A stretch of 64,000 nucleotides of DNA from Verrucomicrobiaceae bacterium (GTDB lineage: Bacteria; Verrucomicrobiota; Verrucomicrobiia; Chthoniobacterales; Chthoniobacteraceae): contig SXWH01000035.1 in NCBI GenBank assembly GCA_005791535.1, forward strand, positions 1-64,000. The letters run 5' to 3'. Each line of letters begins with the position of its first letter. The first letter of the stretch is position 1. Of the stretch, positions 15,315-45,133 are shown one piece after another. Under the pieces are notes generated by a model. It was not told where the DNA came from and did not search any database. It saw only the letters and a list, made by a program, of their open reading frames with translations. Both the position numbers and the translations under genes were made by a program.

Positions 15315-15323
15315 AACGCCACT

Positions 15324-17440: not shown

Positions 17441-18257
17441 ACTTGGGTTTCGCGTCCGCTTTCAACCGGTCGAGTTCGCGCTGCAGTTCGGCACACTCCT
17501 TGGAATGTGCGCGGTAATACTTCTCGAACTCCAGTCGCTGCTCTTCGCTTCGCTCACTGGGTTCAAGCGCCATCGTCGTCCGAATCGAATCCGGAACCTC
17601 CAGAATCGGCGGATTCGCAGTCGATACAAAAACCCGGAAATTGACGGACCTGGCCGCCGTCCGCTGATTTCGAAGTGTGAGAAGCAATGAAGATTGCGGC
17701 TCGTGCTTGGGAGGACTTTTCAATTCGAATACGGCAGCCGTGGACGTCCCCTTATGAAACGGCACCTCCCATCGGGTCTCGACGTTTCCGTCGACTGCAT
17801 TCGTAACCGCGCCCGTATGCGCCTCGAAATTCGCCGTCGCTGTCGCGATGGAAATCAACGGCGCATTTGCACCCGGCCGAATCTCGACCTCTCCAATCTC
17901 GATCTTTTCGACGCCTACACCCGCGGCCCACTCAATTCGGAACGCGGTGATACCGAAGCGCGGAGGGCGTAGTTCGATGGCAAACTCAGCGCCGCTCCCG
18001 TTCGCATTCGATGTCCGAATTGTTCCATCGGCTGCGAGTTCAATACTGCCATTTACAGCATTTACGCGCTCCACTTCCACGGGCTCCCATTTCACGGGCG
18101 CGTGGAGAGCGGCCTCCCATTCATGCAGGCCATTTTCCACAGCTTCCTCGATTCGCTTCTCCAGCGCCGCGATTTGCTCCGTACGTGAATCACATGCGGA
18201 GAGTGCCAGCGGAAGCATGCCGAGCAATACGGCAAATATCACGGTGCAGTGATTCAC
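17421..18257 (-). CDS. lipoprotein with discoidin-like segment, coupled to the giant amylase
   Basis: A 278-residue protein with a lipoprotein signal peptide ending LPLALSAC, the lipobox cysteine at residue 22. A short helical stretch is followed by a beta-rich region (residues 45-220) resembling a discoidin or galactose-binding fold, and then a conserved tail (SIRTTMALEPSERSEEQ, EFEKYYRAHSKE, ELQRELDRLKA). That tail recalls the linker in PVC DUF1549/DUF1553 cytochrome proteins, where a sugar-binding-like domain precedes a similar YYR motif. The start is a GTG sharing its first base with the TAG of the amylase gene (TAGTG), so translation is probably coupled. It may tether or present substrate at the cell surface; that is inference. 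Confidence 0.72.
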   Translation of the reverse strand: MNHCTVIFAVLLGMLPLALSACDSRTEQIAALEKRIEEAVENGLHEWEAALHAPVKWEPVEVERVNAVNGSIELAADGTIRTSNANGSGAEFAIELRPPRFGITAFRIEWAAGVGVEKIEIGEVEIRPGANAPLISIATATANFEAHTGAVTNAVDGNVETRWEVPFHKGTSTAAVFELKSPPKHEPQSSLLLTLRNQRTAARSVNFRVFVSTANPPILEVPDSIRTTMALEPSERSEEQRLEFEKYYRAHSKECAELQRELDRLKADAKPKFKASPE

Positions 18258-21200: not shown

Positions 21201-24200
21201 TTGTTTCCGCTGTAGCAGGCGACTACGGCCTGCCATCCCATGGTTGTGTATGTGTCGACATCGTCCGGGAGATTGCGCTCGCCGATACCCGGATTGCCCA
21301 CATTCAGGACGACGTAGATGTCCAGTTTTCCGTCCTCGGCAAACGGTACCAAGTCGGCCACATCCACACGGAAGTAGAAATTCCCATCGCCACCCGCACC
21401 GGTCGCGCCGCCGTCGTGCGCGTAAAAGGCCACAATATCGCGCGACGAATCACCACCATCGGCGTTGTGGTAAATATCGCCACCGCCGGTGTTGGTTCCC
21501 TCGCCATCAACCTCGTCGAGCACAATTAAGTCATCCGCAGTCCAGTCCGTGAACTCCTTCGAATTGGAGACCCCGCCGATCACAACGGGTGTCTGAGGTC
21601 CGATAACAATGCTATTCGGCGGCGGAGGCACTCCTGTGTCCGGCTGCCGAGGGTCCGTGCCGTTCACGAACTCCTGAAGGTTGGTGAATCCGTCGTTGTC
21701 CGGATCGCCCGCAGGACCATTGCTCGCGAGACCAGGACGGCCCGTGCGCAAGCTGGTCCCGGTGCCAGCATCGAGCGGGTCGAGTCCGTTGGCGGATTCC
21801 CATCCGTCAGAAAGGCCATCCCCATCCGTGTCACCCGAACATGCATCGGTCTCACTGAATAGAAGGCCGATTCGATGTCCGTTGGCCGCGTTCGTTTTCG
21901 GGAACTGAGCAGCAACCTTCGCGAGGCTCACCCGCTTCGATTTATACGAACCAAAGGACCACGTGATGTCGCTGAATCGGCCATAGCCGAGCGCATTCGA
22001 TTCATCGAACGGCCCAAGAACAACGAAGTCGCCGGCCACATCCGCCGCATCGAGATCCACCAGAACCAGTGACACACCACCGCTGTCATCGACATCCTCG
22101 CTTCCGTCTTTCAATCCGTCGCCATCCGTGTCGCCCGAAGCCGGGTCGGTCTCCAGAACGACAGCGCCTGCCGGCAACTTCGACCGGTCGAGACGCGACG
22201 TATTGTAGAACGTCGGCGGATGGGCAATGAGCGCAGTGATGCTGCCCGTTCCATCGACGGTCCCGATATCAACACGACCGTTGCGGTTTGCGTCCTCGAC
22301 GCCGTCATTCAACCCATCGTCATCGGTGTCCGCCTTGTTCGGATTTGTGCTGGTTCCCGCGATGAGATCAGTCCGGTTATTGTTCGCGTTGTAGCTCCAC
22401 GGTGAAAACAGTTCGAAACCACCGGGCCGCGTCGAATTGCCCGTGACGTTGAAAAGCGGTGAATCGAGGTCGGCCTGGAAGTTAAGAAAACCGTCCCCGT
22501 TTGTATCTGTCGCCGTATTTGTGCCGGCATCGCTTGCACTCGCCCACCCTACTTCCAGTCCGTCGGAAAGCCCATCGCCGTCGGTATCCACAATCGTCGG
22601 GTCGGTCTGACCGAACGCAAAATGCACGTGCACCTGACCGTTCGTCCACGTGTTAGGGTCCGTTGCCGGAAGCGCCGTCAAGGTCTGCTCGCCCGAATCG
22701 CTGAGACCGTCGTCATCGTCATCCGTGTCAGTCGGATTCGGCGGGACAATCTGCCGGAAAAGCACCGTCGCATTCCGGATATCGCGGCCCTCGACCGTTG
22801 CTGCGTTTCCATCAAGATCGCCGCGGGCCTCGAATGTGAACTGCCCTTCCGTGATGCCCGACCACAGGAATCTCCAGAACTTGTGATCGCCTTCGATGCG
22901 CGGATTGGGCGTGCCATCATTGATCAGCGCCATCGTTCCCGCGCCCTTCGTGAACACCATCTGCACGCCGATGTATGCATCGTCCGTGTCCACCTCCACC
23001 ACAAACTGTCGCTGCTCCGGTGTGGGCACCGGCACGTCGGGAAGGATTATTTCATACCGCTTCCCATCGCTGTCGAACTCCGGTGGATTAATGATGCTGA
23101 TCAACGGCGGCGGGAGCACCGGAAAAGCCTTCACGAGCCGCGTCGCCACAAGCGACGAGTTTCCGGGCCGCGTCATCGTGACCTCAATTAAGTGCAGGAA
23201 GTCCGGATTGCCATTATATAAATTCGGAAGGGCAAACTGGAAGTCGTGATACCCCGGCGATGCGTTGTAGATGATCGGCAAAGTCTGCGGAACCTGAGTG
23301 ACCGCACCCTGCGATTCACCGCTCACCTCACTCGCGATTTTGACGGATATCCGCGAACGCAACTCCGACTCGCTCAGTCCGTCGCCGAGCGTATTGGTAA
23401 AGCGCACTTTCATCACGTACCCGTCGCCTGTGACCTGCCCGTCCTGCTGGGGAAACGCCACGAACATCCGGAGATTCGGCCCCGCTGTGTTCACCGTGCG
23501 GACGAGTTCCGTAGTCCACGACGCAGCCGGAGAAAGGGTCATATTGCGCGACGACGACAACTCCAGAAGCCTCACCTTGATCGTCGCCGGGCCCGTCGCG
23601 GGGATGTTGCGGTAATTAAACCGGAACTCCCGCGGATACGGACTGCTCGTGGTAAGCGACGGCGTCACCTCGCTCGCACGCTGCCAAGTGGCGGCAAGGT
23701 TCCCATCGAAGGTGCCGTTGCCGTTGATGTCCGTAAACGACTCGCCCGAGTCCCGCACCCCGTTTCCATTCGAGTCGGTGAAAGGCTCCGGCCCCGCACC
23801 ATTCCCGCCTTGCGAACCAGTCACGCCATCATCGTTTGATGGATCACCGTCGGTGATATTGTACCAGACTTCCGTGACATCGCTCGCTGCGCGAACCACA
23901 GCTCCGTAGGTGCCGCCGCCGAGCGTTTCGTTCTGCGACGGGAACACAACTGCCCCCTGCGGCGTCTGGGTGTCGTAGTAAAAAGTCTGCGTAAAAGTAT
24001 TGTAGATGCTCGCCTTTCCACTGCGGCTCAAAAACGCGCGCGCCCGCAGAACGTGCCAGCCCTCTTCAAGTCCGGTTCGCTGCTCCGAGTAGTCGTTGTG
24101 AGGACGAACGGTCGCGGTCGTTGCGTTGAAGTTGGTGATTTGGAAAACAGTCTCCATTTTCCGCTTCACATCCACCGTTGTGGCACTCGATGGAAACACC

Positions 24201-26926
24201 GAGGCGCCGTTTGATTTGAAAGCGCCCACTTTGTAGCGGATTACCGTCCCGGCTGTTTGCGCAGGAATATTGCCGGTCCACCAATCCGTCACATTGGAGC
24301 CATCCGGATTTCCCGCCTCCTGATAACTCATGACCACGACCTGCGTCGTGCCGGCGGGCTCGCCGCCGGAGCCTTCGGGCGCAGACCCGTCCGTCGTGTA
24401 GTAAAGGCGTAGATTATCGACCTGGAACTGGTATCCAGTCTTCACCTTGATCGTAATCGGCTGCCCCGCCGCCAAAGCAGGCTGCGGCGAAAACTGCGCT
24501 CCACCGATGTCACGATTCGCCTCGGGATCATGATAAACGTAAGTCGCCGTGCCGGAACTCGTGTTCGTGCCACTTCCATTCGCGCGCGTGAAACCGACCG
24601 TTCCGACCGTGAACCGCCAGGTCTCGGCGCCGGGTGAACCAATCACATTTCGCGCCGTGTCCTTCGCCGCAAATTTCTCGGTGCTCCGCCGGACAAACTG
24701 CATCTGCTCGTAGCCATTGAATACATCCGTGGATAGCGCGGGCTTGTTGTCACGTTTGTCGCCGGTCGTAGGGCCGATTCCCATCTGGGAATTGATGTCC
24801 ACGCCGCCGTCCAGTTTCATGAGGATGTTCTCCGCAGAACCGTCTGTGCGGGCGATGAACGAAAGGTTCGTGCCGCTCGTCACGCGCGGCAGCGAGATGC
24901 TGTATTTGTAGTCGGTCGTGTTTGCGTCCGGCAGACCGTACGGATTGAAGCCCTTGTCCCCGTTCCGCCCGTCCTTGCGCTCGACGGTCACCGTGCCCGC
25001 AGGCACTCCATTCTGGAGAATCGTCAGCGGCCCGGTGTTTGAAATCGTGGACGTCTCCGGCGACCGGTATGAAAACATGAAGTATCCACCAGGCGGCACA
25101 ATCACACTGCCGAGGCTGGATGCATTGACGTAAAAGCCTCCGTTGTAGGTCGAGTAGTTGTAAAGATACGCGCTGCCGGGAAATGCCGATGCGATCCCCC
25201 TCGCCTGCCCGGACGAAAAATTATCGTTCATCATGAACAGCAGCGTCACGCCATCCGCGTCGCTCATGCTTCCATTCTCGCGCTTGTCGATTCGTTCGTA
25301 GGCAACGTAGTCCGCATCAGACCAGCGTCCGACCTGATCTCCGCGGGAGAAGTGCTCATGGACATACACGACATTTGGAATCTTTGGGTCACCGAACTGC
25401 CCCAGGAAATTTGTGTTTGAATGCCGCGGAAACGCGCCACCGCTCCCCTCCAAAAGGCCCGCCTTGTTGTAGCCGTCCGTGTAAATCAGCGGCAAACCGG
25501 CCCGCGTGAAATAGTACGCGTGCTGCAACTCACGGCGGGCGGCAAAATCCGAATCGTGGGACTGTGCGTGAGTCACACCGACGCCCGGCGAGAATCCTCC
25601 TGCTCCCGGCTGGTCGTAGCCATTAAGCCCGACTCCCGGATTTCCAAGCCGGTTGTTCAATTCGTTCCGCAGCGGATTGTCGATGAGCCGCATTCCAGCG
25701 TTGATGTATCCATCAAATCCCGGCGGTGATCCGAGATGCTCGCCGAACAGCATCAGGTCATCCCGCGGCTGCTCGGTATCGAATACTGTGTCGCGGTGGT
25801 TGTTCCAATCGGAATAGCCGCGCACGAGATTGAACTGCTCCTGCGCGCCGCCGAGGTAGCCGGCATTCGAGCTATCCTTGTTGGCTCCGCCCTGCTGGCC
25901 GAAAAAGTAATCCGGAACGTGTTTTACCGCGTCCAGCCGGTAGCCATCCGCTTTCGTCCGGTCCGTCTGCCAGCGAAGCGTGCGGATCAGCATCGCGTTC
26001 ACATCCTCGGGAACCGGATTTCCCATATTGTACTTCCCGTCACCAAATCCCCAAGCCGCCGTATTCCGGCCGGGCGTCAGCGGATCGACACCCGTGTCCG
26101 TGAACGGCTCGCTCGGCTCCCCGACGTCGTGCTGACCGTTGCCATTCAAGTCCGTCCAATCAAAGCGCCCGTTGCCTGCGCCGTTTCCAGCGACACCGAC
26201 ATCCTGAAACGGCTCCTTGTTCGCGAAAGGATACACGGTCACGTTCACGCCACCGCCGCTCAGCGCCTGCGGCAGGTCCGTATCCACGTAATACTCGGGA
26301 TTGTTTGGATGCCGGGTGAACGTGAGCTTCGGCATATCATCACCTTCATTGAAACCGTGGTTGGTGTTCGGTGTCTCGTGCGCGATGTCGATGAGGTCGG
26401 AAAGCCCGAGATTCTGCACCTGCCAGGCGCTGTTCCAGTCCCGCGTGTTGTCCCATTTCCGGTAGAATCCATCCTTTGTTTTCCGGAGGTGAAAATCCTC
26501 CGGCACAAATCCGGGATACACATCGATGGGCGTCGTCTCGTTGTAACCCGGAATATCGAACGCATTATGGTTCATGATATTGTCGAAATACACGCGGATG
26601 CCGAAGCGGTGCGCTAGGGCAACCAACTCAAGCAACTCCGCTTCCGTGCCGTACAGCGTGCGCACGGTCCCCCGCTGGTTCTTCGATCCAAGATCGAAGC
26701 GATCCCACAAATCATACCCTACGCTGAATCCGCCCGACCCCTTACACGGAGGCGGCAGCCACAGCGACGTGTAGCCGACCTCGGCAAGTTCCGGAATCCG
26801 CCGCATGATTTCACGGTACTCCGTGTTGAAATACTGCAACATCCCCTCGCCCCGCGCTCCGAGGAGAGAGCAACAAAACAGGATGCAACCGACGAGAAGG
26901 CGGAAAATTCGGTTAAAGGTGCGCAT
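18257..26926 (-). CDS. giant secreted amylase with GH13 and GH57-like modules
   Basis: A 2889-residue protein with a signal peptide. The N-terminal GH13 alpha-amylase barrel has all four family regions: DNIMNH (115-120), GYRLDAVKH with nucleophile Asp332, LFGEHLG with acid/base Glu396, and QSHDSD with Asp458. A long beta-rich middle follows, including calcium-binding DxDxDG repeats of the thrombospondin-3 type (for example DTDGDGLSDG) that run to about residue 1780. Next comes a glucodextranase-C/DOMON-like carbohydrate-binding region (about 1785-2035) and a GH57-like catalytic module starting near His2056, with a putative nucleophile Glu2185 in VFWNPERVADTD. Two more DxDxDG repeats and a C-terminal beta domain ending RFYRVVAIAP close the protein. 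It should act outside the cell on starch-like alpha-glucans. Confidence 0.85.
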   Translation of the reverse strand: MRTFNRIFRLLVGCILFCCSLLGARGEGMLQYFNTEYREIMRRIPELAEVGYTSLWLPPPCKGSGGFSVGYDLWDRFDLGSKNQRGTVRTLYGTEAELLELVALAHRFGIRVYFDNIMNHNAFDIPGYNETTPIDVYPGFVPEDFHLRKTKDGFYRKWDNTRDWNSAWQVQNLGLSDLIDIAHETPNTNHGFNEGDDMPKLTFTRHPNNPEYYVDTDLPQALSGGGVNVTVYPFANKEPFQDVGVAGNGAGNGRFDWTDLNGNGQHDVGEPSEPFTDTGVDPLTPGRNTAAWGFGDGKYNMGNPVPEDVNAMLIRTLRWQTDRTKADGYRLDAVKHVPDYFFGQQGGANKDSSNAGYLGGAQEQFNLVRGYSDWNNHRDTVFDTEQPRDDLMLFGEHLGSPPGFDGYINAGMRLIDNPLRNELNNRLGNPGVGLNGYDQPGAGGFSPGVGVTHAQSHDSDFAARRELQHAYYFTRAGLPLIYTDGYNKAGLLEGSGGAFPRHSNTNFLGQFGDPKIPNVVYVHEHFSRGDQVGRWSDADYVAYERIDKRENGSMSDADGVTLLFMMNDNFSSGQARGIASAFPGSAYLYNYSTYNGGFYVNASSLGSVIVPPGGYFMFSYRSPETSTISNTGPLTILQNGVPAGTVTVERKDGRNGDKGFNPYGLPDANTTDYKYSISLPRVTSGTNLSFIARTDGSAENILMKLDGGVDINSQMGIGPTTGDKRDNKPALSTDVFNGYEQMQFVRRSTEKFAAKDTARNVIGSPGAETWRFTVGTVGFTRANGSGTNTSSGTATYVYHDPEANRDIGGAQFSPQPALAAGQPITIKVKTGYQFQVDNLRLYYTTDGSAPEGSGGEPAGTTQVVVMSYQEAGNPDGSNVTDWWTGNIPAQTAGTVIRYKVGAFKSNGASVFPSSATTVDVKRKMETVFQITNFNATTATVRPHNDYSEQRTGLEEGWHVLRARAFLSRSGKASIYNTFTQTFYYDTQTPQGAVVFPSQNETLGGGTYGAVVRAASDVTEVWYNITDGDPSNDDGVTGSQGGNGAGPEPFTDSNGNGVRDSGESFTDINGNGTFDGNLAATWQRASEVTPSLTTSSPYPREFRFNYRNIPATGPATIKVRLLELSSSRNMTLSPAASWTTELVRTVNTAGPNLRMFVAFPQQDGQVTGDGYVMKVRFTNTLGDGLSESELRSRISVKIASEVSGESQGAVTQVPQTLPIIYNASPGYHDFQFALPNLYNGNPDFLHLIEVTMTRPGNSSLVATRLVKAFPVLPPPLISIINPPEFDSDGKRYEIILPDVPVPTPEQRQFVVEVDTDDAYIGVQMVFTKGAGTMALINDGTPNPRIEGDHKFWRFLWSGITEGQFTFEARGDLDGNAATVEGRDIRNATVLFRQIVPPNPTDTDDDDDGLSDSGEQTLTALPATDPNTWTNGQVHVHFAFGQTDPTIVDTDGDGLSDGLEVGWASASDAGTNTATDTNGDGFLNFQADLDSPLFNVTGNSTRPGGFELFSPWSYNANNNRTDLIAGTSTNPNKADTDDDGLNDGVEDANRNGRVDIGTVDGTGSITALIAHPPTFYNTSRLDRSKLPAGAVVLETDPASGDTDGDGLKDGSEDVDDSGGVSLVLVDLDAADVAGDFVVLGPFDESNALGYGRFSDITWSFGSYKSKRVSLAKVAAQFPKTNAANGHRIGLLFSETDACSGDTDGDGLSDGWESANGLDPLDAGTGTSLRTGRPGLASNGPAGDPDNDGFTNLQEFVNGTDPRQPDTGVPPPPNSIVIGPQTPVVIGGVSNSKEFTDWTADDLIVLDEVDGEGTNTGGGDIYHNADGGDSSRDIVAFYAHDGGATGAGGDGNFYFRVDVADLVPFAEDGKLDIYVVLNVGNPGIGERNLPDDVDTYTTMGWQAVVACYSGNNGRVYIDTNPTTNTTGLGQSLAGAGVIQRDQSSANGFKKSYYNSELDSVEFSISRQALLDAGWNGLNAADLLFQVFTTKDGTTNSPVGPGDLGGRTDIRDTIYDDYLANDYYGAQAAISGNGSKLQAYFGRTAGNDRGRSAKILSVIHGNQAIQPGSSIQALINTANGAGYYRPLDVHQAYGVPVAMHITPTLASAIQWAKVDPASPRQYRDGPAFNSRIRNLAGSGVVQLLGSTFSDHIIDYFPADFNASNVSLANEYLTSIYGPGVSTQVFWNPERVADTDVFQKIAALGFGWTFIDQQRHVFKWFGRESSLSNDGYRINEMNGVKSFVINDNLGVILFTNDDNGLPISLRNLLLRKARSSSQDQVIVIVNNWEDFAINDNADDYDRNMRWLACHPWTKITTPQEIAAGQIDLNVPPDGNGNTWGTVNRGANIGLPKVQHDFLDHATQESYDNWYNGQAGREEGLRDKRFNVRPSVQLPAAKKWGTVGIDGVSHETWATLNTISSLSSPMGRLARGTAFSSVFQTAFHNQTNDDRSKFSTGAYIYPDTTSQTLASFAAVSQAQFRNAAIYKRIDTWVQGAAAGSFNGTVATDTFDADLDGESEYLIYNDRLCALFERIGGRLTGLWARDPATGSVVQTIGNFASYAGLADEREGLSNIVGGAVDAYRVTAMRDQFFTPTTGPGTNQYVNDLYSIVAAPSGAGWQITSSDGKIRKTVTLAVGATALSVNHSIVGGGGPLFVRFGLSPNLGDLLLNGQANLLGTPNSNPVSYQLYNRNSARPSRVSIVPIGTNFPRNVSAVDRDSGVAFDTINMRNLAQTVQVEFQLTGGGIQYEIGSQVGSTISGDSDGDGLPDLWEVQNGIDPFLTSGANGAGGDPDNDGLTNSQEYAFSSNPLAADNAIARITVTRPTASTTAVTFASRAGRAYRVEYTNDLLQPWTQAGPNIAGTGGNITWTDDGTQTVTAPGLEVQRFYRVVAIAP

Positions 26927-27025: not shown

Positions 27026-27556
27026 CTATTCGGGGTTCGGCTCGTAGGCGATTGCGACCAGACGGGAATTCTCCGAATACTTCGTGACGACATAGCGCGT
27101 CGAAGACCTGTAGGACGCAGAACCCTTTCCGTTGTCGATGAAACGGATTTCGAGGTCTTCCACTCCGTCGCCATTAAAGTCACGGCGGCCTAATACCTCG
27201 ATGGAGTACCACCAATTCTTCGTATCTAACTCCGCCTTCAACTCCGCGGTCGAAGTCGGCTTGATTCCGAAATCCTCAAAGTGATGTTGACCGGGTTCAC
27301 GACGTGGTCCGAACGAATTGCGGAACGAGGCGAGGTCGAGATTGGCCACGACGAACTCCGCTACTTTTGACTTCGGAATAAACGACTGCATTGGCGGCTT
27401 CTGCGAGCCTTCGGCTGCGTTTCCATCCATCGCAAGCAAAGCGAGTGCTCCTAAGATGGAAGCGGTGAGCTTGCGGGTAGCGCAACGGGGAGTGAAGCGC
27501 GACAGGAGAATTCCGCAGGGATGCTGTGTGGTGGTTGTGTTCATTTTGATGTTCAT
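27026..27556 (-). CDS. secreted protein of unknown function
   Basis: A 176-residue protein. The N-terminus (MNIKMNTTTTQHPCG) leads into a basic and hydrophobic segment (RKLTASILGALALLAMDGNA) that looks like a long signal peptide. The mature part contains DFNGDGVEDLEIRFIDNGKG, an FG-GAP/EF-hand-like DxNxDG motif seen in secreted proteins describing 'measured' values, and a C-terminal beta stretch (STRYVVTKYSENSRLVAIAY). The start could also be the ATG at 27544, four residues in. It lies upstream of the giant amylase on the same strand but is separated by a probable terminator. I do not recognise the family. Confidence 0.68.
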   Translation of the reverse strand: MNIKMNTTTTQHPCGILLSRFTPRCATRKLTASILGALALLAMDGNAAEGSQKPPMQSFIPKSKVAEFVVANLDLASFRNSFGPRREPGQHHFEDFGIKPTSTAELKAELDTKNWWYSIEVLGRRDFNGDGVEDLEIRFIDNGKGSASYRSSTRYVVTKYSENSRLVAIAYEPNPE

Positions 27557-27734
27557 ATGAGCTGGTTTAGGCGTGTTTTGTGTTGTTGCGCGTCAGAACT
27601 GTTCCGACGCTTGCATTCATCGAAACGACGGTTCTCGCGAATTCTTTCAAAAAAATTTGCGGAAATTTCATCCGTCCGCCCGCGCTGCGGTTATTCTCGC
27701 AATCTGCCGGCGCTTGATGCTCAGTTTCATGCAA

Positions 27735-28577
27735 ATGAATCCGCTTCTCACGCGCAGGAGTTTTTTAAGTTCCACCGTTCTTTGTTCGACCGCCAACGCC
27801 ATCGGAACCGCGGAGACTGCCACTGATCATCGTCCGAAGCCTCCGTTTCGAGTCTGGTATCAGCCCCGCCTTTTCCACCGCGACATGAGCCTCTACGCAG
27901 GCATGACTCTGGACGCAAGCGGATGGCTCGATCCGAAGCTCGCCGCGCTCGCTGGAAAGACCGGGCTCCGCTGGGCGTACGGCACGAATCTGCCCGACGC
28001 GAACGGACCGGCCTACTGGCTCGACATGTGCAGACATTCAGAAAGCAAACCCGGCATCGCGATCGACGAGTGGGTACCGTCGAAAAATCCATCCATGGAA
28101 GGCTGGGCCGCAGAAGGCCTCCGCGCAGGACGCAAATCGGCACCGGATATTTTCATCGCCGTGTGGGTCACCGATCCGACACCGGTGCTCGCTTCGCTGG
28201 TAACAGACGGAACCGTCGATCTCGTCATCGCCGAAACCTACACGCACGCCGCAGCAAAATGGGGTCGCGACGCCACGCTTCATTGGGACACCACGCTTCG
28301 CCGGATGGATGCCGCACAACAACTCGGCATGGGTGAGAAGACCATCTTCTGCTTCGGCCACATATCGCCGGATAAGGACATCAAAGGACGCGCCCTGGAC
28401 CCGGGCTGGATCACCGAACGCGCTCACGAAATCAAGGAACGCTACCCGAAAGCACCGGGCATCGCATTCTATCAGGACGACAGTCCCGACGACTCAAAAT
28501 CCTTCCGCGAGTTGGTCAGGCACTGCGATGCCCTGAGCACGAAGCTGTGGCCGGATACCGGTCCGGCACAGCGATGA
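27735..28577 (+). CDS. Tat-exported protein of unknown function
   Basis: A protein of about 280 residues whose N-terminus, MNPLLTRRSFLSS, carries a twin-arginine export motif (TRRSFL). The mature part has a glycoside-hydrolase-like feel: FRVWYQPRLFHRDMSLYAG, GIAIDEWVPSKNP, FIAVWVTDPTP and GIAFYQDDSPDD, with several conserved-looking acidic residues (Asp-Glu in IDEW, Glu in IAETYTH). This might be a TIM-barrel, but I cannot name a family. Start codons at 27717 and 27729 are also possible; the one at 27735 keeps a compact Tat signal. Its TGA overlaps the ATG of the next gene (ATGA), so the two are coupled. Confidence 0.7.
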   Translation: MNPLLTRRSFLSSTVLCSTANAIGTAETATDHRPKPPFRVWYQPRLFHRDMSLYAGMTLDASGWLDPKLAALAGKTGLRWAYGTNLPDANGPAYWLDMCRHSESKPGIAIDEWVPSKNPSMEGWAAEGLRAGRKSAPDIFIAVWVTDPTPVLASLVTDGTVDLVIAETYTHAAAKWGRDATLHWDTTLRRMDAAQQLGMGEKTIFCFGHISPDKDIKGRALDPGWITERAHEIKERYPKAPGIAFYQDDSPDDSKSFRELVRHCDALSTKLWPDTGPAQR

Positions 28578-29470
28578 AAACGGGCACCACGCAACTGCCG
28601 GAATCCCGCCGTCGCGGAACAATTCTCCGCAGCGCATTCCGCGCTTCAATCGTCGGTCTGATATTGGTCTTTGGTTGGGTGTTCTGGAGCACACGCCAGC
28701 GCGAACTCGCGATCAACGAGGCACGGAACCTCGGATGGACCGTCAGCTACAAAACCGCTTTCAGCATCATCAAGGGCGACTGGCGGGCGGCATTCAGGTC
28801 CTCCACGTGGATCAACGACGAACCCATTCTGACAATCGATGAGTCCTCGCAATTCGACAAACATGCCGACCTCGTCCGCCGGATCGCGCCGCGTAAACTG
28901 AGGATTCATGACATTTCGGATTGGACCGACCTCGCGCACCTGCGCGGATTCAAAAGCATTCGCAACCTCGGTCTCGGCTCCGGGCGGAACATTACCTCGC
29001 TTGAAGGACTGGAGTCCCTCCCAAATCTCGAGTCTTTCTTCGCTCCCGGACGCGAGAAGCTTCGCGACATTTCTGCAATTCGGGAACTCAAAAGGCTCCG
29101 CACACTCACGCTTTCATTGCCGAATGAGACGACCGACCTCTCGATCGTGGCCGGACTCGGGAAGCTGAAATTCTTTACAGTCATTCACGGGCGAAAGTTG
29201 AGGGACATTTCCGTGCTCAGCGGCCACCCTACACTGACCGACCTCGCGATATACGATGTCGAACGCCTGCCCGACCTTACGCCGCTCACCACGATCCCAA
29301 ATCTCAGCACACTTTCGCTCAGCAACGTCGGCAATGCCGATGCCATCACGACTTTTCCCATGATACCCGGCCTGAAAACCATCAACCTCCCGCACCCGGA
29401 ATACTTCCCAAAACGCCTTCGCGACCTCATCAAAACCGCAAATCCGACGGCCACAATCTTCAGCGACTAG
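28574..29470 (+). CDS. membrane-anchored leucine-rich repeat protein
   Basis: A 298-residue protein with a basic N-terminus and one transmembrane segment (ASIVGLILVFGWVFW, near residues 25-40), then a domain made of about six leucine-rich repeats of the internalin/LRR_4 kind. Recognisable units are ITSLEGLESLPNLESF, DISAIRELKRLRTLTL, DLTPLTTIPNLSTLSL and MIPGLKTINLP, each with the L..L..L pattern. The protein is likely anchored in the inner membrane with the repeats outside, where such domains bind proteins. The start overlaps the stop of the Tat protein by four bases, which suggests the two form a unit. Confidence 0.82.
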   Translation: MKTGTTQLPESRRRGTILRSAFRASIVGLILVFGWVFWSTRQRELAINEARNLGWTVSYKTAFSIIKGDWRAAFRSSTWINDEPILTIDESSQFDKHADLVRRIAPRKLRIHDISDWTDLAHLRGFKSIRNLGLGSGRNITSLEGLESLPNLESFFAPGREKLRDISAIRELKRLRTLTLSLPNETTDLSIVAGLGKLKFFTVIHGRKLRDISVLSGHPTLTDLAIYDVERLPDLTPLTTIPNLSTLSLSNVGNADAITTFPMIPGLKTINLPHPEYFPKRLRDLIKTANPTATIFSD

Positions 29471-29479
29471 GCGCCCGCC

Positions 29480-29614
29480 TCACTCCGCGATTTCGAGCCG
29501 GTAAAACCTCGCGGGCGACGTCGCCTTTCCGTCCCGCATGAAATACTCGCTGCCCGCGAGCCCTTTGCGGCCTTGCTCCGGGCTGCGAGTGGGATATGGG
29601 TGCGAGGCATTCGC
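29480..29614 (-). pseudogene. fragment of a secreted protein's C-terminal module
   Basis: On the minus strand a 44-codon stretch without a usable start ends at the TGA at 29482-29480. Its last residues read EYFMRDGKATSPARFYRLEIAE. The final FYRLE motif is the signature of the beta-sandwich module closing many verrucomicrobial secreted proteins; in this window the amylase ends RFYRVVAIAP and the CotH protein RFYKVVTPAP. No gene for the rest is present upstream, where a stop codon closes the frame at 29615-29617. It is therefore probably a relic of a lost gene. It could be chance; confidence is low. Confidence 0.35.
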
Positions 29615-29616
29615 CT

Positions 29617-32319
29617 ATGAAACGTCTTCTATTCCTCACAGCACTTTTTCTTTCCGGCTCATCGATTTCGAGTGCGGCGGAGGTGCTTTCGGATACGGCG
29701 GTTTGGGGGTTTGCGACGGATTTTTTGAGCTATCGCAATGCGACGAGCAAGGGGTGGAATTTCGGGAACAGCGCGGCGAATGCGCCGACGGTTTCTTTGC
29801 TGGGGGTGACGATGACGGGGAATACCGGGGTGAATGATACGCTGAACGGGCTGATTTTTACGACGGCGCCGCTGACGTATCCGATCGGCGGTTTTACGTG
29901 GACGGGTGCGCCGGAGCAGGCGGCGCGGGATGGAATCAGCAAGGGCGGTCTGCACGGCGGTGCGGGGTTCTTTGCGATGAAGTTCGCGACGACTGCGGGG
30001 AAGACTTACATCGTGGATATCGTGGCGCTGGATGCGTCGGCACCGGCGGGCGGGCGGAGCATGGATGTGCTGGTGGACGGGGTGCTGACGAAGGACGACT
30101 GGCATGTGCCGTCGGGGAGTCCGTACAACCGGGTGCTGCGCATCCGCACAGTGGCGGATGCAGACGGTGTGGATCTTCGTTTTAATCGCGGCGGCGTGGT
30201 GGGGTCGGATCAAAATCCGGCGATTTCGGCGGTGGCGATTACGGAGGAGGTGGCGTCGCCGCCGGTGATCGGGACTGCGCCGCGCTCGCAGACGCAGCCG
30301 ATTGGCGGGACGGCGACTTTTTCCGTGGTGGCGGGTGGTGCGCCGCTGACGTATCAATGGCGGAAAGGGACGGTGCCGATTGGCGGGGCGACGGGTGCGA
30401 GTTATACGATTTCGCCGGTGACCGTGGGGGATGCGGCGAGCTACGATGTGGTGGTGACGAATGCGCAGGGCTCGGTGACGAGCAGCGCGGCGACGCTGGC
30501 GACGGTGGTTCCGCTCGCGCCGGCGGCGAGCGGCGTTTTGCAGAATCTCGCGGGCTACTGGCGCTTTGATGAAACGATGGGCGGGACGGCGGCCGATACG
30601 TCGGGCCAGCACAATAGCGGGGTGCTCACGAATTTTTCCGCGGCGACGAATGCCTACTGGACGCCGGGAAAAGTGGGCGGCGCGCTGCGGTTCGCGGCGG
30701 GGACGACGAATGAGCATGTGATCGTGCCGAACTTTCCGAAGACGACGGCGAACTATTCCATCTCGGCGTGGGTGTGGGCGGATTCGCGTCCGGTCTGGGC
30801 GAGCATCGTGAAGAACTGGTACGGGGAGTTTCATTTCGGTCTCGATGGCGGCACGGGCGAGCTGAGCAATTACATCGGGCTGACGAGCGGGCAATTGAGC
30901 GCGAAGGAAGCGGGCGTTTTCCCGACGGGCTCGTGGCAGCACGTGGCCTGCACGGCGGATGGCGCGAATCTGCGCATCTTCCGCAATGGTCTCCAGGTCG
31001 CTTCCACACCATACAGCGGCGCGCTCTTTACTCCGCCGCAGGCACTGAGCATCGGCGCGAAGATCACCGGCGCGAGCACGACGGACAGCCATTGGCAGGG
31101 GCTCATCGACGATGTGGCGCTGTGGAATCGCGCGCTTTCGGCGGGTGAAATCTACAATCTTTTCGCGGCCGGTTCCGCGGGCCTCGACATCACGAACGCC
31201 ACACCGCCCGCGCCTCCGACTGCGCTCGTGATCAACGAATACATGGCGGACAACGTCGGCGGAATCGAAGACGAGGACCGCGATTCCTCGGACTGGATCG
31301 AGCTCTATAATGGAACGGCCGCGGCGGTGAATCTCGACGGCTACTACCTCACGGATGTCTCGACGAACCTCGTGAAATGGCGCTTCCCCGCGGTGACGAT
31401 CAACAGCGGGCAGTATCTGCTCGTCTGGGCGAGCGGGAAGAACCGCCGCATCGCCGGGCAGCCGCTGCACACGAATTTCCAGCTCGATGTGGATGGCGAG
31501 GACATCGCGCTCGTCGCGCCGGATGGAACGACGATCGTGCACCGCTTTAACACGCCGCTCGCCTTCACGCCGGGCGCGGGATTTCCGCACTACCCCGCGG
31601 CGACAAACGTGAGCTTTGGTCTGCAAAACGCGGGCACGCAGACGGCGTTCTTTCCCGTGCCGACTCCGGGCCAGCCGAACGTCGCGCCAGTCGAGCCGCG
31701 CGGCGCGCTCATCAGCCAGCTCTCGTTTCTGCCGCTCGCGCCGACGGCGGGACAGGCCATCAACGTCACGGCGCGGATTCGTCCGGACCAGACGACTGCG
31801 ACGGCAAATACAATCACCAGCGCGACGCTGCGCTACCGGCTCATGTATGGCGCGGAGCAGACGACCGCGATGCACGACGACCGCGATGCACGACGACGGG
31901 CTGAATGGCGACGCGGTGGCGGGCGATGGATTTTTCACCGGCACGATCCCCGCATCGCTCGGTGCCACGGCGGGACAAATGGTCCGCTGGAATGTCACCG
32001 CCGTGACCGCCGAAGGCCGCACCACGCGCGCACCGCGGCGGCTCATCGCCGAGTCACCCGAATACGAAGGCACGGTGATCGCGGACCCCGCAATCACTTC
32101 GCCGCTGCCGGTCATCCATCGCTTTGTCGAAAACGCGGCGGCTGCGGAACTCATCACCGGCACGCGTTGCGAGATATTTTACGACGGCGAGTTTTACGAC
32201 AATTGCTTCACGCGCATCCGAGGCAACACGTCCATCGGCTGGCCGAAAAAGAGCTACAAGGTCGAGTTCAACAAAGGCCACAAGTTCCGCCTCCGCACCA
32301 CGCAGGGCCGCGTGGATGA
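29617..32319 (+). CDS. LamG/Ig/lamin-tail CotH surface protein, 5' part before a frameshift
   Basis: The ATG at 29617 starts a signal peptide (MKRLLFLTALFLSGSSISS). The frame encodes a beta-rich N-terminal domain, an Ig-like domain near 230-310 (GTATFSVVAGGAPLTYQWRKG), a LamG-like domain near 320-520 (YWRFDETMGG to IDDVALWNRALS) and a lamin-tail domain near 545-680 (LVINEYMADNVGG, DWIELYNG). At about 31880 a 16-bp tandem duplication shifts the frame; everything after that point up to 32319 is arginine-rich nonsense. The CotH-kinase part continues in another frame (next entry). Removing one repeat copy would give one protein ending at 34435. The gene may be broken, phase-variable, or mis-assembled. 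Confidence 0.8.
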   Translation: MKRLLFLTALFLSGSSISSAAEVLSDTAVWGFATDFLSYRNATSKGWNFGNSAANAPTVSLLGVTMTGNTGVNDTLNGLIFTTAPLTYPIGGFTWTGAPEQAARDGISKGGLHGGAGFFAMKFATTAGKTYIVDIVALDASAPAGGRSMDVLVDGVLTKDDWHVPSGSPYNRVLRIRTVADADGVDLRFNRGGVVGSDQNPAISAVAITEEVASPPVIGTAPRSQTQPIGGTATFSVVAGGAPLTYQWRKGTVPIGGATGASYTISPVTVGDAASYDVVVTNAQGSVTSSAATLATVVPLAPAASGVLQNLAGYWRFDETMGGTAADTSGQHNSGVLTNFSAATNAYWTPGKVGGALRFAAGTTNEHVIVPNFPKTTANYSISAWVWADSRPVWASIVKNWYGEFHFGLDGGTGELSNYIGLTSGQLSAKEAGVFPTGSWQHVACTADGANLRIFRNGLQVASTPYSGALFTPPQALSIGAKITGASTTDSHWQGLIDDVALWNRALSAGEIYNLFAAGSAGLDITNATPPAPPTALVINEYMADNVGGIEDEDRDSSDWIELYNGTAAAVNLDGYYLTDVSTNLVKWRFPAVTINSGQYLLVWASGKNRRIAGQPLHTNFQLDVDGEDIALVAPDGTTIVHRFNTPLAFTPGAGFPHYPAATNVSFGLQNAGTQTAFFPVPTPGQPNVAPVEPRGALISQLSFLPLAPTAGQAINVTARIRPDQTTATANTITSATLRYRLMYGAEQTTAMHDDRDARRRAEWRRGGGRWIFHRHDPRIARCHGGTNGPLECHRRDRRRPHHARTAAAHRRVTRIRRHGDRGPRNHFAAAGHPSLCRKRGGCGTHHRHALRDILRRRVLRQLLHAHPRQHVHRLAEKELQGRVQQRPQVPPPHHAGPRG
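31860..31897 (+). repeat. 16-bp tandem duplication that breaks the CotH gene frame
   Basis: CCGCGATGCACGACGA occurs twice back to back (31865-31880 and 31881-31896), and the period-16 match extends from 31860 to 31897. Since 16 is not a multiple of three, the second copy shifts the reading frame. With a single copy the protein would read straight through as TTAMHDDGLNGDAVAGDGFF. The ATG inside the second copy (31886) could serve as a new start for the 3' part. Confidence 0.95.
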
Positions 32320-34435
32320 GTTCGACCTCAATACGACCTTCACCGACAAGAGCTACGTCCGCGCGCAGATGGTGAGCGAGATGTACCGCGCCACCGGTCT
32401 CGCGACGCCGGAGATTTTCCCGGTCCACGTCCGGCAGAACGGCGCATTTTATTCCGTCGCTCTCTATGTCGAGCAGCCGGACGGCGATTTCCTCGGTCGC
32501 AACGGACTCGACCCCGACGGCTCCTACTACAAAGCCGTCGGCGACCACGGCGCGTGCGATTTCACGGCGGCGTCCGCTTTCGACAAAAAGACGCGTCTCG
32601 ACGAAGGCTACGCCGACCTCGATGCGGTCGTCACCGCCATGGGACTCACCGGCACGGCGCTGGAGACGTGGCTCTTTGACAATCTCGACGTGCCGCAAGT
32701 CGTGAACTTCATGGCAGGCGTCGCCATCACGCAGAACATCGACGCGTCGAACAAAAACTACTTCATGTATCGCGACAGCGACGGCTCGCGCGAATGGATG
32801 TTCATCCCGTGGGACCTCGACCTGAGCCTCGGTCCCGATGCGCTCAACACCGACACGATCGTCTATGCGCAAAATGCGCCCGCGACTCCCGCATGCGCGA
32901 GCCACCCGTTCCTCGGCGTGCGGCCATGGCAGCTCCACGCAAACAAGTTCAACCGATTGCAGGAAGCCATCGTCGCCAACCCGCGGACCCGCGCCATGCT
33001 CGTGCGCCGCATCCGCGGAATGAACGATCAATTCCTCGCAACAAACTGGTTTCAAAACCGCATGGATGTTTTGAAACCCACGCTCCAGGCCGACGTGGAC
33101 GCCGACCGCGCGAAGTGGGGCGCGAACTCGCATTTCAATTGGGCCGGCGGCGGAATCGTCACGCTCACGCAGGCGATGGACCGCATCAAAAACGAATACC
33201 TCGCGCCGCGCATCGGGTATCTCACGACGACGCACGCCGCGCCCGAGACGCTGAATTTCAGCACCGGACTCGGCAGTGCGGGAATCCCGTCCAGCCAGCC
33301 CGCAGCGCCCGTCATCACATTCGGCGACATCGAGGCAAATCCCGCGAGCGGCATTCAAGATCAGGAATTTATCGAGCTGCGAAACACCGGCACGACTTCC
33401 GTGGATATGAGCGGATGGACGCTCAGCGGCGGCGTCACATTTACCTTCAAAGGCGGGACCGTCGTTCTTCCCGGCGAGAGCATTTACGTGACGCCGAACC
33501 GTTACGCATTCCGCCAGCGCACGACCGGTCCGCGCGGTGCGGAGCGGCGGCTTGTCACCGGCGACGCATTAGGGCACCTCAGCAATCTCGGCGAAACGCT
33601 CACTCTAAAGAACGTCGCTGGCACGACGATCGCGAGCGTCACACTTCCTGCAGCGCCGAGCCCCGCGCAGCAGCATCTCCGCATCACCGAACTGCACTAC
33701 CATCCGCCCGGCGACGGGCTCGCGGAGTTCATCGAACTCCAGAACACCAGCACGACCGCGACGCTCGACCTCACGGGCATTCACTTCAGCGACGGCGTCG
33801 AGTTTGCGTTCAGAGCATCCACGCTAGCGCCCGGCGAACGGATTTTCGTCGTCCGGAATACCGCCGCATTTACCGCAGCGTTCGGCGCGGGATTCCGCAT
33901 CGCCGGTGAGTTTGCCAACGACACGAACCTCAGCGACGGCGGCGAGCACGTCGCTCTCGACGATGCGACGAACAGCACGATTCAAGAGGTCACCTACAAC
34001 GACATCGCCCCGTGGCCCGTCGCCGCCGACGGCGCGGGAGCCTCGCTGCATTTCATCGTCGGCAGCACCGACGCACCCGCCGTGAGCGAAGCCGTCCGCT
34101 GGTTCGCGTTTGCGCCAAATCCCGGCAGCATCCCCGACGACACCGATGGCGACGGCCAGAGCAATCTCACCGAATGGCTCGCCGGCACGAATTCAGGCGA
34201 CGCCGCCAGCCGCTTCGTGATTTCCAGCACCGTCAAAAACGGCGACGGCAGCATCACCGGCACATTCCCCGGCGCAGCGGGCAAGACCTACCGCATTTTT
34301 TCGTCTCCCGACCTCGCGACATGGTCGCCGCTTGGCGCAATCATCACGCCCGTGGTGAACGGCGCACAGACATTCACCGACCCGACTCCCGGAACCGGCG
34401 CACGTTTTTATAAGGTCGTGACGCCCGCTCCGTGA
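31886..34435 (+). CDS. CotH-kinase / lamin-tail surface protein, 3' part after the frameshift
   Basis: This frame continues the protein interrupted at 31865-31896. It encodes a CotH-type protein kinase-like domain (CFTRIRGNTSIGWPKKSYK, NYFMYRDSDGSREWMFIPWDLDLS) over roughly the first 420 residues. Two further lamin-tail domains follow (DQEFIELRNTGTTSVDMSG and LAEFIELQNTSTTATLDLTG). A DxDxDG stretch (DDTDGDGQSNLTEW) and the common C-terminal module ending RFYKVVTPAP complete it. CotH kinases phosphorylate secreted spore-coat or surface proteins in characterised members. If translated alone it could start at the ATG at 31886, but without a signal peptide it would stay in the cytosol, which makes no sense for these domains. 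It converges tail to tail with the acyltransferase. Confidence 0.78.
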   Translation: MHDDGLNGDAVAGDGFFTGTIPASLGATAGQMVRWNVTAVTAEGRTTRAPRRLIAESPEYEGTVIADPAITSPLPVIHRFVENAAAAELITGTRCEIFYDGEFYDNCFTRIRGNTSIGWPKKSYKVEFNKGHKFRLRTTQGRVDEFDLNTTFTDKSYVRAQMVSEMYRATGLATPEIFPVHVRQNGAFYSVALYVEQPDGDFLGRNGLDPDGSYYKAVGDHGACDFTAASAFDKKTRLDEGYADLDAVVTAMGLTGTALETWLFDNLDVPQVVNFMAGVAITQNIDASNKNYFMYRDSDGSREWMFIPWDLDLSLGPDALNTDTIVYAQNAPATPACASHPFLGVRPWQLHANKFNRLQEAIVANPRTRAMLVRRIRGMNDQFLATNWFQNRMDVLKPTLQADVDADRAKWGANSHFNWAGGGIVTLTQAMDRIKNEYLAPRIGYLTTTHAAPETLNFSTGLGSAGIPSSQPAAPVITFGDIEANPASGIQDQEFIELRNTGTTSVDMSGWTLSGGVTFTFKGGTVVLPGESIYVTPNRYAFRQRTTGPRGAERRLVTGDALGHLSNLGETLTLKNVAGTTIASVTLPAAPSPAQQHLRITELHYHPPGDGLAEFIELQNTSTTATLDLTGIHFSDGVEFAFRASTLAPGERIFVVRNTAAFTAAFGAGFRIAGEFANDTNLSDGGEHVALDDATNSTIQEVTYNDIAPWPVAADGAGASLHFIVGSTDAPAVSEAVRWFAFAPNPGSIPDDTDGDGQSNLTEWLAGTNSGDAASRFVISSTVKNGDGSITGTFPGAAGKTYRIFSSPDLATWSPLGAIITPVVNGAQTFTDPTPGTGARFYKVVTPAP

Positions 34436-35032
34436 TTACTCCGGCACGCGTTTGGCGTAGCGGGCTGGATTGCCGGCGACGATGGTTCCGGGCGGGACGT
34501 CCTTTGTTACGACGGCGCCGGCGGCGATGACGGAATTGTCGCCGATGGTGACCCCTTTGAGGACGATGGCATTCATGCCGATCCAGACATTGTTGCCGAT
34601 TTTCACCGGGCGGGAACGGACGGCTTCGAGCGGACGTTGCGGCTTGTTTTCGTAGTAAGGCGCGAGCGCCTCGGCGTCGATACGGCGCTGGGCGGCGCCG
34701 ACGGGGTGAAAGTCGCTATCGGCAATGCCCACGCCCCAGGAAATGAGACAGTGCGAGCCGATGTCCACGCGCGTTTCGCAAGTAATGAGCGCGCCCACGA
34801 GGAGCGTGAAGTCCCCGATGGTGACGTGGGCGTCGCCGCTGACCGCAAACTGGCAGGCGGCATAAACACTGACATGGTCGCCGATCTCGATGGCGGGCTG
34901 GCGTTTGCCTTTGAAATGCAGAAAGCACTGAGCGCTCTCGCAATAAAAGCCGTCGCCCCAGACGATGTTCTCGGGAATGCGGCGCGGGGACCAGTCGTGC
35001 TCTACGGTGCGGTCGGGACGGACGTTGGACAT
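34436..35032 (-). CDS. hexapeptide-repeat acyltransferase
   Basis: A 198-residue left-handed beta-helix protein. The C-terminal half shows repeated hexapeptides ([35 protein letters not shown]) and ends [10 protein letters not shown], the hallmark of the maltose/galactoside O-acetyltransferase group. A histidine in DSDFHPVG is a candidate catalytic base. These enzymes transfer acetyl or other acyl groups from CoA to sugars, often for surface polysaccharide modification. The ATG at 35032 starts [14 protein letters not shown]; an ATG at 35089 is open but adds an unrelated stretch. Its stop directly abuts the end of the CotH gene, and it is divergent from the small basic protein gene. Confidence 0.85.
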
Positions 35033-35134
35033 GGCGGGACCGTGGCTGGAAACAGCCCGCACGTAAATCTCCGAAAATCGTACTTGCACAAAACGACCAG
35101 ACCGCTAGTTTCCGCGCCTCTTTTCCAAAAATAT

Positions 35135-35290
35135 ATGTCGCAGCACCGCAGTCTCAAAGGTTCCAGCACCATCGCCGCAAAGCGCAACGTCCTCAAGCGC
35201 TTCGAGCGCGTGGAAGTCCTCAAGCGCCGCAATCAGTGGAAGGAAGGCGATCGCGTAATCGGCCTGCGCAAGACAAAGCCGGACGCCTAG
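35135..35290 (+). CDS. small basic protein of the Chlamydiae/Verrucomicrobia type
   Basis: A 51-residue, strongly basic protein starting MSQHRSLKGSSTIAAKRNVL and ending DRVIGLRKTKPDA. This closely matches the family described as a small basic protein restricted to Verrucomicrobia, Chlamydiae and relatives (TIGR04137), whose biochemical role is unknown but which is thought to bind RNA. The start at 35135 is preceded by an A-rich stretch without a Shine-Dalgarno. A strong intrinsic terminator follows at 35324, so the gene is probably monocistronic. It is the best taxonomic marker in the window. Confidence 0.88.
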   Translation: MSQHRSLKGSSTIAAKRNVLKRFERVEVLKRRNQWKEGDRVIGLRKTKPDA

Positions 35291-35323
35291 TCCGCAAGAA
35301 ATTTTCGTGGTTTGTTGTTTCGA

Positions 35324-35363
35324 CGAAGCCGCCGGGCTGTGGGCCTGGCGGCTTCGTTTTTTT
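35324..35363 (+). terminator. rho-independent terminator of the small basic protein gene
   Basis: CGAAGCCGCC (35324-35333) pairs perfectly with GGCGGCTTCG (35347-35356) over ten base pairs. The short GC-rich interior can extend the stem, and a seven-base T-run (35357-35363) follows. The stem's left arm lies 34 bases after the stop codon. Confidence 0.92.
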
Positions 35364-35461
35364 CTCCGCGAGGCAAGCGACGGGCGAACCGTGCCAAAAG
35401 AACGCTTGCCCGGGCGCGCGGAGAAGCGTTCAGTTGAGCCGCCAACTTACATCATCGTTCC

Positions 35462-36259
35462 ATGAGGAAATCCATCATCGCCATCGCGCTCACCGCTTCC
35501 GTCGCCCTCGCCGAACCGCCGCAGAAGATCGACATCTCCAAGCTGCCGCAACAGACGCAGGTCGTGGATGACGTGGTGGTGCCTGTTCCGAGCGAAATCT
35601 TCAATGTTCTCGACAAACTCGGGAAGCCGAACTGGACGTCCGTTTTGCGCGCCCCAAACGGCGTGGCGAAGCCATTCGGCCAGCAGCCGCAGGTCGCTCT
35701 CTATATGGGAACGATCATCGCCGAGGGGTTCATCGCCGTCGAGGCGGAGGACGCGGAGGCCGTGAAGAATATCGGCAAGAGCGTCCTGAGCCTCGCGACA
35801 GCGCTCAGCATTCGGAAGGAAGTGACGAGCCGTGCGAATGCAATCATCGCCGCCGCCGATAAAAAGGATTGGGGCCAGGTCCGCAAGGAACTGGACGGCG
35901 CACTCGGCGAGGTCCGCGGCGCGATGAAGGCCCTCGGCGACGAACAACTCTCACACCTCGTCAGCCTCGGTGGCTGGCTCCGCGGAACGGAGGCACTTTG
36001 CGCGGTGGTGGACAAGAACTACAGCAAGGACGGAGCGGATTTGCTGCGCCAGCAGATGCTGCTCAGTTTCTTCGACAACAAACTCGACGCTTTCAGTAAG
36101 AAGAAGCCGGTGAACGCGCTAATCCCGAAGATTAAAGGCGGACTGAAGAGCATCCAGCCGCTCATCGGTCTCGCGGCCGATGCCGACATTTCCGCCAAGT
36201 CCGTGAAGGAAATCGGCGAAATCACCGCCGGGCTGGTAAAATCGATTCAAACCAAGTAG
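35462..36259 (+). CDS. secreted protein of unknown function
   Basis: A 265-residue protein with a signal peptide (MRKSIIAIALTASVALAEPP). The mature part is mostly helical: SRANAIIAAADKKDWGQVRKELDGALGEV near 125-150, SLGGWLRGTEALCAV, and LLRQQMLLSFFDNKL. It contains one cysteine and no haem or enzyme motif. Similar all-helical secreted proteins recur in Verrucomicrobia, but I cannot name a family. It is followed after 15 bases by another small secreted protein on the same strand, so the two probably form an operon. It is likely periplasmic. Confidence 0.72.
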   Translation: MRKSIIAIALTASVALAEPPQKIDISKLPQQTQVVDDVVVPVPSEIFNVLDKLGKPNWTSVLRAPNGVAKPFGQQPQVALYMGTIIAEGFIAVEAEDAEAVKNIGKSVLSLATALSIRKEVTSRANAIIAAADKKDWGQVRKELDGALGEVRGAMKALGDEQLSHLVSLGGWLRGTEALCAVVDKNYSKDGADLLRQQMLLSFFDNKLDAFSKKKPVNALIPKIKGGLKSIQPLIGLAADADISAKSVKEIGEITAGLVKSIQTK

Positions 36260-36274
36260 TCATCTCAGCAACCT

Positions 36275-36703
36275 GTGAAGAGTTCCTTTTTCAAACTTCT
36301 CGCGATACTCGCCTTCGCACTGCTGCCCGTGAGGGCGACGGTGGACGATTCGCTTTCCTACGCGCTGGAGGCCGCGACGCCCTACGTGAAGGAAGGCTTT
36401 ACCGTGCGCGAAGATTGGTGGGGCGGAGATCTTCCGGTGAAGAAGCCGAAGGCCATCGTGCATCAGCTCTTCAAAGGAAACCAGTACTGGTTCTGGATGG
36501 GCACCGAAGTGAACGGCGCGAAGATTTCGGTGCATATCTACGACGCCGACGGCAACCTCTGCGAAGTCGAGGCGTGGGCAAAGGGACGCTTCGCCGCGGC
36601 GCGCGTGATTCCGAAGAAGACGGGTACCTATTACATCATCGTGGAAGTGGAGAAATCCGACCGGGAACGCACCCACTGGGCACTGGCTTACGGCTTTCGC
36701 TGA
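36275..36703 (+). CDS. small secreted protein of unknown function
   Basis: A 142-residue protein beginning at a GTG (translated as Met). The signal peptide is MKSSFFKLLAILAFALLPVRAT, followed by a beta-rich mature part with WWGGDLPVKKPKAIVHQLFKG, YWFWMGTEVNGAKISVHIYD and a C-terminal TYYIIVEVEKSDRERTHW. The fold resembles small beta-sandwich modules, but no family is recognised. The 15-base gap to the upstream gene suggests the two are expressed together. No Shine-Dalgarno precedes the GTG. Confidence 0.68.
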   Translation: MKSSFFKLLAILAFALLPVRATVDDSLSYALEAATPYVKEGFTVREDWWGGDLPVKKPKAIVHQLFKGNQYWFWMGTEVNGAKISVHIYDADGNLCEVEAWAKGRFAAARVIPKKTGTYYIIVEVEKSDRERTHWALAYGFR

Positions 36704-36864
36704 GTCACTGCAGCGCCGTGCGGTGATGCGAGCAACGCAACACTTCCGGCATTCTTTCGATAGCCGGCGGACGAATCCCACCCTTTACCGCCTGCTGCCA
36801 AAACCATCCGTATGCGGCAACCGCGACATTGCGGCTGCGCATCAAACCTTCATTTTTCATTTTT

Positions 36865-37815
36865 GTGGAACAGACATTTGAATTCGACAGCGCCCGCACA
36901 CTTGGGTCGCTGTTTTTAAACGACCTCGGCAATTTACAACTCATCGAACGCACGCTCGGCGTAAAGATCACCACCCGCGAAGGCTGGCTGCGCGTGGAGG
37001 GCGAAACGGCTGCCGTGGAGCAGACCGGCCGCATTTTCCGCCAGCTCGCAGACGCGCAAAAGGGCGGCCTGACGATTCGCAAGTTCGAGTTTAACTACGC
37101 TCTCCGGGCCGTTCAGGAACCGGACGCGCCTTCGCTCGATGCGCTGGTTGTGACGAAGATCCAGTGCTCCAGCCGGCGACCGCCCATCGTGCCGAAGACG
37201 GCGGTGCAGCGCGCTTACATTCAGGCGATTCAGCAGCACGACATGACGTTTGGAATCGGCCCCGCGGGAACGGGAAAAACGTATCTCGCCATGGCAATGG
37301 CGGTGTCCGCTTTAAAAAAAGAGCAGGTGCATCGCATCATCCTCACGCGCCCCGCGGTCGAGGCGGGCGAAGCGCTCGGGTTTTTGCCGGGCGATTTGAA
37401 GGAGAAGATCATGCCGTATTTGCGCCCGCTCTATGATGCGCTGCACGACATGATCGATGCGGAGGACATGCAGCGGCTGTTTGAGCGCGGCGTGATCGAA
37501 GTGGCTCCCCTCGCCTACATGCGCGGTCGCACGCTGAATCACGCCTTTGTCGTCCTCGACGAAGCGCAGAACACGACGACCGAGCAGATGTTCATGTTTC
37601 TCACCCGCCTCGGTGCGGACAGCAAAGCCGTCATCACCGGCGATCCGACGCAAATCGACCTACCCGGCAACAAGCGGAGCGGACTCATCGAAGCACTCAC
37701 CGCGCTGAAAGGCGTGGAGGGAATCCACTTCACGAACTTCGGCGAGCGCGATGTGATCCGCCACGAACTCGTGCAGCGAATCGTCAAAGCCTACCGCTCG
37801 CACCGGAGCAATTAG
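36865..37815 (+). CDS. phoH: PhoH-family ATPase
   Basis: A protein of about 316 residues with a P-loop (GPAGTGKT at residues 132-139) and Walker B (VVLDEAQN at 229-236). The region between carries the family motifs ILTRPAVEAGEALGFLPG and GDPTQIDLP. These identify a PhoH-like (PhoL/YbeZ) cytosolic ATPase, a family linked to RNA metabolism, usually next to ybeY; no ybeY gene is seen here. The N-terminal part resembles a KH-like domain. The start is uncertain: a GTG at 36865 opens with EQTFEFDSARTLGS, typical for the family, while a TTG at 36829 would add twelve basic residues. It converges on hisD with only three bases between the stops. Confidence 0.92.
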   Translation: MEQTFEFDSARTLGSLFLNDLGNLQLIERTLGVKITTREGWLRVEGETAAVEQTGRIFRQLADAQKGGLTIRKFEFNYALRAVQEPDAPSLDALVVTKIQCSSRRPPIVPKTAVQRAYIQAIQQHDMTFGIGPAGTGKTYLAMAMAVSALKKEQVHRIILTRPAVEAGEALGFLPGDLKEKIMPYLRPLYDALHDMIDAEDMQRLFERGVIEVAPLAYMRGRTLNHAFVVLDEAQNTTTEQMFMFLTRLGADSKAVITGDPTQIDLPGNKRSGLIEALTALKGVEGIHFTNFGERDVIRHELVQRIVKAYRSHRSN

Positions 37816-45006: not shown

Positions 45007-45065
45007 GGCGCGCGGTTTAGAGAGACACGGGGAAATGTGCAAGGTTGACGAGCGTAGGAAGTAGT

Positions 45066-45133
45066 CAGTGGGCGGTGGTCAGTAGTCGGTAGTCGGTTGA
45101 CGGCGCAATGCGCCGACTGACCACTGCCCACTG
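45066..45133. repeat. long imperfect inverted repeat built of AGTCRGT-like units
   Basis: CAGTGGGCGGTGGTCAGT (45066-45083) pairs with ACTGACCACTGCCCACTG (45116-45133) with one G-T pair in eighteen. Inside, CGGCGC/AAT/GCGCCG (45101-45115) makes a second hairpin, and AGTCGGT is repeated (45084-45097). Copies of CCCACTG continue to 45140. It sits between the end of the Gfo/Idh gene and the start of the NtrC-type gene, both minus strand. There is no T-run, so it is not a simple terminator; it may be a genome-wide intergenic repeat. Confidence 0.85.

Follow-up and report, generated by a model that had tools for sequence, protein, structure and literature searches.

A private 16-bp tandem duplication that frameshifts a CotH surface-protein gene, probably a recent mutation rather than a dedicated switch

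A long gene for a CotH surface protein (29617–34435, forward strand) is frameshifted by a short exact tandem duplication in the 64,000-nucleotide stretch of DNA analysed here, which we call the window and which comes from an uncultured freshwater Verrucomicrobiaceae bacterium. The question raised by this locus is what the second copy represents: a means of turning the protein off and on, an ordinary mutation of the sampled strain, the boundary between two separate products, or an error of assembly.

The duplication and the gene that it interrupts

The repeated tract lies at 31860–31897 on the forward strand (period 16, 2.4 copies, 38 bp, 100% match); no other tandem repeat in the window scores as high. 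The unit CCGCGATGCACGACGA occurs exactly at 31865–31880 and again at 31881–31896, so that the exact 16-bp duplication claimed in the preliminary description is confirmed both by sequence match and by tandem-repeat scoring; no further site with two or fewer mismatches is present elsewhere in the window. Once the shared GACGAC is counted, the repeated stretch amounts to 22 bp, and an exact tandem repeat with a 22-bp match arose in none of 60 simulated 64-kb sequences (order-2 Markov, matched to the window in composition). It is also the sole exact repeat of this kind within a gene across the ~705 kb of its own genome that was scanned. Amongst the other genes in 641 kb of own-genome stretches, a sample weighted toward contigs carrying CotH/LTD genes, there was no intragenic tandem repeat with a period of at least 10 that was not a multiple of 3.

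The duplication adds 16 bp, which is 15 + 1, and the frame therefore moves by one. Frame 1 is open from the ATG at 29617, a start that agrees with that of the orthologue L034 described below, right through the repeat; beyond it the reading is out of frame and ends at a stop at 32317–32319. This 5' frame (29617–32319, forward strand) carries the LamG domain and the first LTD domain. On the same strand, frame 2 stays open over 31616–34435, its meaningful part beginning in the repeat (~31881) and comprising a choice-of-anchor X motif, the CotH domain and two LTD domains. The frameshift that had been proposed is thereby borne out, with frame 1 stopping at 32319 and frame 2 open to 34435. The choice-of-anchor X motif is matched where the 3' part begins, which places the duplication within that motif.

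Read as a whole, the gene has a signal-peptide-like N-terminus followed by Ig-like, LamG, LTD, choice-of-anchor X, CotH and two further LTD elements, the families being those of CotH/LTD/LamG surface-type proteins and choice-of-anchor X (Pfam PF08757, PF00932 and PF13385; NCBIfam NF041940). The CotH domain scores 133.5 bits against a curated cut-off of 23.8; the Ig-like stretch in the 5' frame scores below its curated cut-off, and the N-terminus, MKRLLFLTALFLSGSSISSAAE, resembles a signal peptide by eye. The single-copy version of the gene would have a predicted length of 1600 aa. Rfam and tRNA scans found nothing.

Some other features of the DNA may be recorded here. Heptamer tandem repeats of the CCCACTG/CAGTGGG type occur at 45061–45147 of the window, where they form two facing arrays between genes that could fold into a hairpin, and also at 908–930 of locus L131 and 15309–15328 of locus L136; a 20-base triple heptamer copy has three further occurrences in the genome. 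An unusually large open frame of 2889 aa lies on the reverse strand at 18257–26926, with weak matches to alpha-amylase, GH57 and TSP3. On contig C240, a CotH/LTD-related stretch (25336–25896, locus L033) has a long frame containing one TAG stop, and could represent another broken gene for a surface protein.

Ancestral state and age of the break

The preliminary description had asked for a comparison with related genomes, and both same-genus orthologues proved to be single-copy and unbroken. An orthologue is present in two of the nine other genomes of the genus, L034 and L035; both are metagenome-assembled genomes, and their genes are ~85% identical to the window gene at the DNA level. The repeat site reads CAGACCGTCGCGATGCACGACGACGGGCTGAATGG in L035 and CAGACGGTCGCCATGAACGACAGTGGGATCAATGG in L034, a single copy in each case, and both genes are open throughout. 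The L034 orthologue is 1600 aa long, equal to the length predicted for the single-copy window gene. That both orthologues have just one copy and an unbroken frame indicates that one copy is ancestral; on this sequence comparison, the duplication is the derived state and is private to the sampled genome, its close relatives being without it. A single-copy second allele was found neither in the genome itself, nor in viral contigs, nor amongst the fetched loci, where only the window's own locus was recovered. Identity to the next best relative within the genome falls to 39%, so an intact second copy did not come to light.

It should be noted that, although the CotH gene (29563–34435) is ~85% identical to its orthologues, the flanks differ. 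The downstream flank is common to L034 and L035 (90–93% to each other), the downstream neighbours in the window (34500–37800) match the relatives on a different contig, and the region at 27500–29500 was matched by neither L034 nor L035 at the DNA level. The CotH gene seems to have changed place.

Comparison with the orthologues gives dN/dS values of 0.14–0.28 for the 5' piece (749–752 codons) and 0.08–0.14 for the 3' piece (845 codons); both halves of the gene still show purifying selection (0.08–0.28). In the 3' piece, the codon changes specific to the window number 25 nonsynonymous to 72 synonymous, the corresponding lineage-specific ratios being 21:71 for L034 and 15:83 for L035. If a neutral ratio of ~2.5 is assumed, rough arithmetic suggests that unconstrained evolution covers ~5% or less of the window branch. 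The same comparison revealed no second stop or frameshift across the 4.8 kb of the gene. The earlier claim that the gene is otherwise intact, and broken by the duplication alone, is upheld by the clean frames and by the intact single-copy relatives. Purifying selection in both halves, together with the lack of any other lesion, implies either an assembly error or a break that is recent on this scale of divergence; so the gene would appear to have been functional until recently, or to be so still in most cells, unless the break arose in assembly. An old pseudogene was considered and rejected on the same dN/dS values and the absence of further stops or frameshifts.

Origin of the second copy and the competing explanations

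GACGAC occurs at 31860, 31876 and 31892, and the first of these three copies at 16-bp spacing (31860–31865, forward strand) is a likely seed for slippage. Given that spacing, a single-copy ancestor would have held GACGAC-N10-GACGAC; a GACGAC pair 16 bp apart is absent from both L034 and L035. Replication slippage or misalignment between two such hexamers would generate precisely the 16-bp duplication seen here. As a seed GACGAC is nothing special, because the window has ~800 comparable sites with microhomology of at least 6 bp at offsets of 8–40. The duplication frameshifts the long CotH/LTD/LamG gene in the sampled strain and would so inactivate it, with loss of the CotH part of the protein. 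Spontaneous reversion to one copy could follow; this is something that all short, perfect tandem duplications share, rather than the mark of a dedicated switch. We think it probable that a recent, private 16-bp duplication, produced by slippage or misalignment at GACGAC, has inactivated the gene in the sampled strain. On the best reading, replication slippage happened once in the population that was sampled, and the mutation could revert by the same route. A recent inactivating mutation had been mentioned in the preliminary description as an alternative, and it is this alternative that fits best, there being no other lesion and the relatives being single-copy and intact.

An assembly or sequencing artefact, in cells that really carry one copy, is unlikely. 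It would accord with a fragmented assembly (5.16 Mb in 294 contigs, 86.6% complete, presumably of metagenome type) and with a gene that is under selection and free of other lesions, as expected if it were truly intact. However, assembly of the 38-bp stretch presumably required at least some reads across the junction, and exact duplications of this kind are very rare elsewhere in the assembly, so there is no sign of systematic error. It is extremely improbable that the locus is a split gene with two functional products, a LamG/LTD protein and a CotH protein, or a case of programmed frameshifting. Frames 1 and 2 are both long and clean, and the second copy of the repeat does contain an ATG (31886–31888, forward strand) in the downstream frame, which had been described as newly supplied by the duplication. 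Yet this ATG encodes a native internal Met of the motif EQTxAMHDDG, which is present in relatives, and the first copy of the repeat holds it as well, at 31870; both a new start codon at 31886 and the split-gene reading were rejected on that ground. By inspection, no ribosome-binding site precedes the ATG, the downstream product would be without a signal peptide, and the upstream frame continues for 430 bp beyond the ATG before its stop, so that the two frames are not translationally coupled.

The preliminary description had proposed a phase-variation switch, in which gain of the second copy silences the CotH protein, loss of that copy by slippage restores it, and variation in a surface protein is useful to the cell. 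We regard this as quite improbable. In its favour, the gene shows selection and no other damage, the protein is of a surface type, the tandem repeat is perfect with a unit length not divisible by 3, and reversible short duplications are described as switching pneumococcal capsule genes (PMC4022640, PMC4243769). Against it, only a single extra unit is present, neither the repeat nor its microhomology seed is conserved in L034 or L035, a search of 94 related loci (730 kb) for exact, frameshifting tandem duplications within CotH genes found none, the 705 kb scanned from its own genome contained nothing comparable in a CotH/LTD gene, and nearly all of the dozens of related CotH/LTD genes in the genome have stop-free frames. 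A contingency locus is expected to keep its repeat or a tendency to form it, and often has sister loci. Here the number of units does shift the frame (16-bp unit, +1), but a repeat or repeat-prone tract is not kept in L034 and L035 and similar repeats are missing from sister genes (the 94 loci and the own-genome sample), so that these expectations fail. A dedicated on/off switch, as against an ordinary and possibly revertible mutation, is thus not supported. By analogy with the reversion seen in pneumococcal duplications, a population in two states might be possible; a reversible OFF state set by the duplication, with ON and OFF cells generated through microhomology slippage and not through a long repeat tract, seems to us very doubtful.

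Relation to known systems

The frameshifting micro-duplication, recent and private, is real, and it is ordinary in kind. Its value is as a clean worked example of a young mutation of this type in an environmental genome, datable by means of single-copy relatives; if both copy numbers occurred, it would become a rare case of surface-protein switching for the group. In domain order and motif, the window gene resembles the CotH/LTD/LamG proteins of Verrucomicrobia and Planctomycetes, from which it differs in being frameshifted at the choice-of-anchor X motif. A search for literature on CotH in Verrucomicrobia turned up nothing useful.

As in the simple-sequence-repeat phase variation of contingency genes in Haemophilus, Neisseria and Campylobacter, a change in copy number leads to a frameshift. 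At those contingency loci, short units are present in many copies and kept across strains, whereas here there are 2.4 copies of a 16-mer, absent in relatives. There is a likeness, too, to the pneumococcal capsule genes cap3A, cap8E and tts, for which reversible tandem duplications are reported (Waite 2001, 2003, as cited in PMC4022640 and PMC4243769). In those accounts two-way switching was observed in culture, in contrast to the one assembled allele of a CotH gene from an uncultured bacterium. Common to both, as far as the citing papers describe the capsule genes, is a short spontaneous tandem duplication within an open frame that disrupts a surface-structure gene and is, in principle, reversible.
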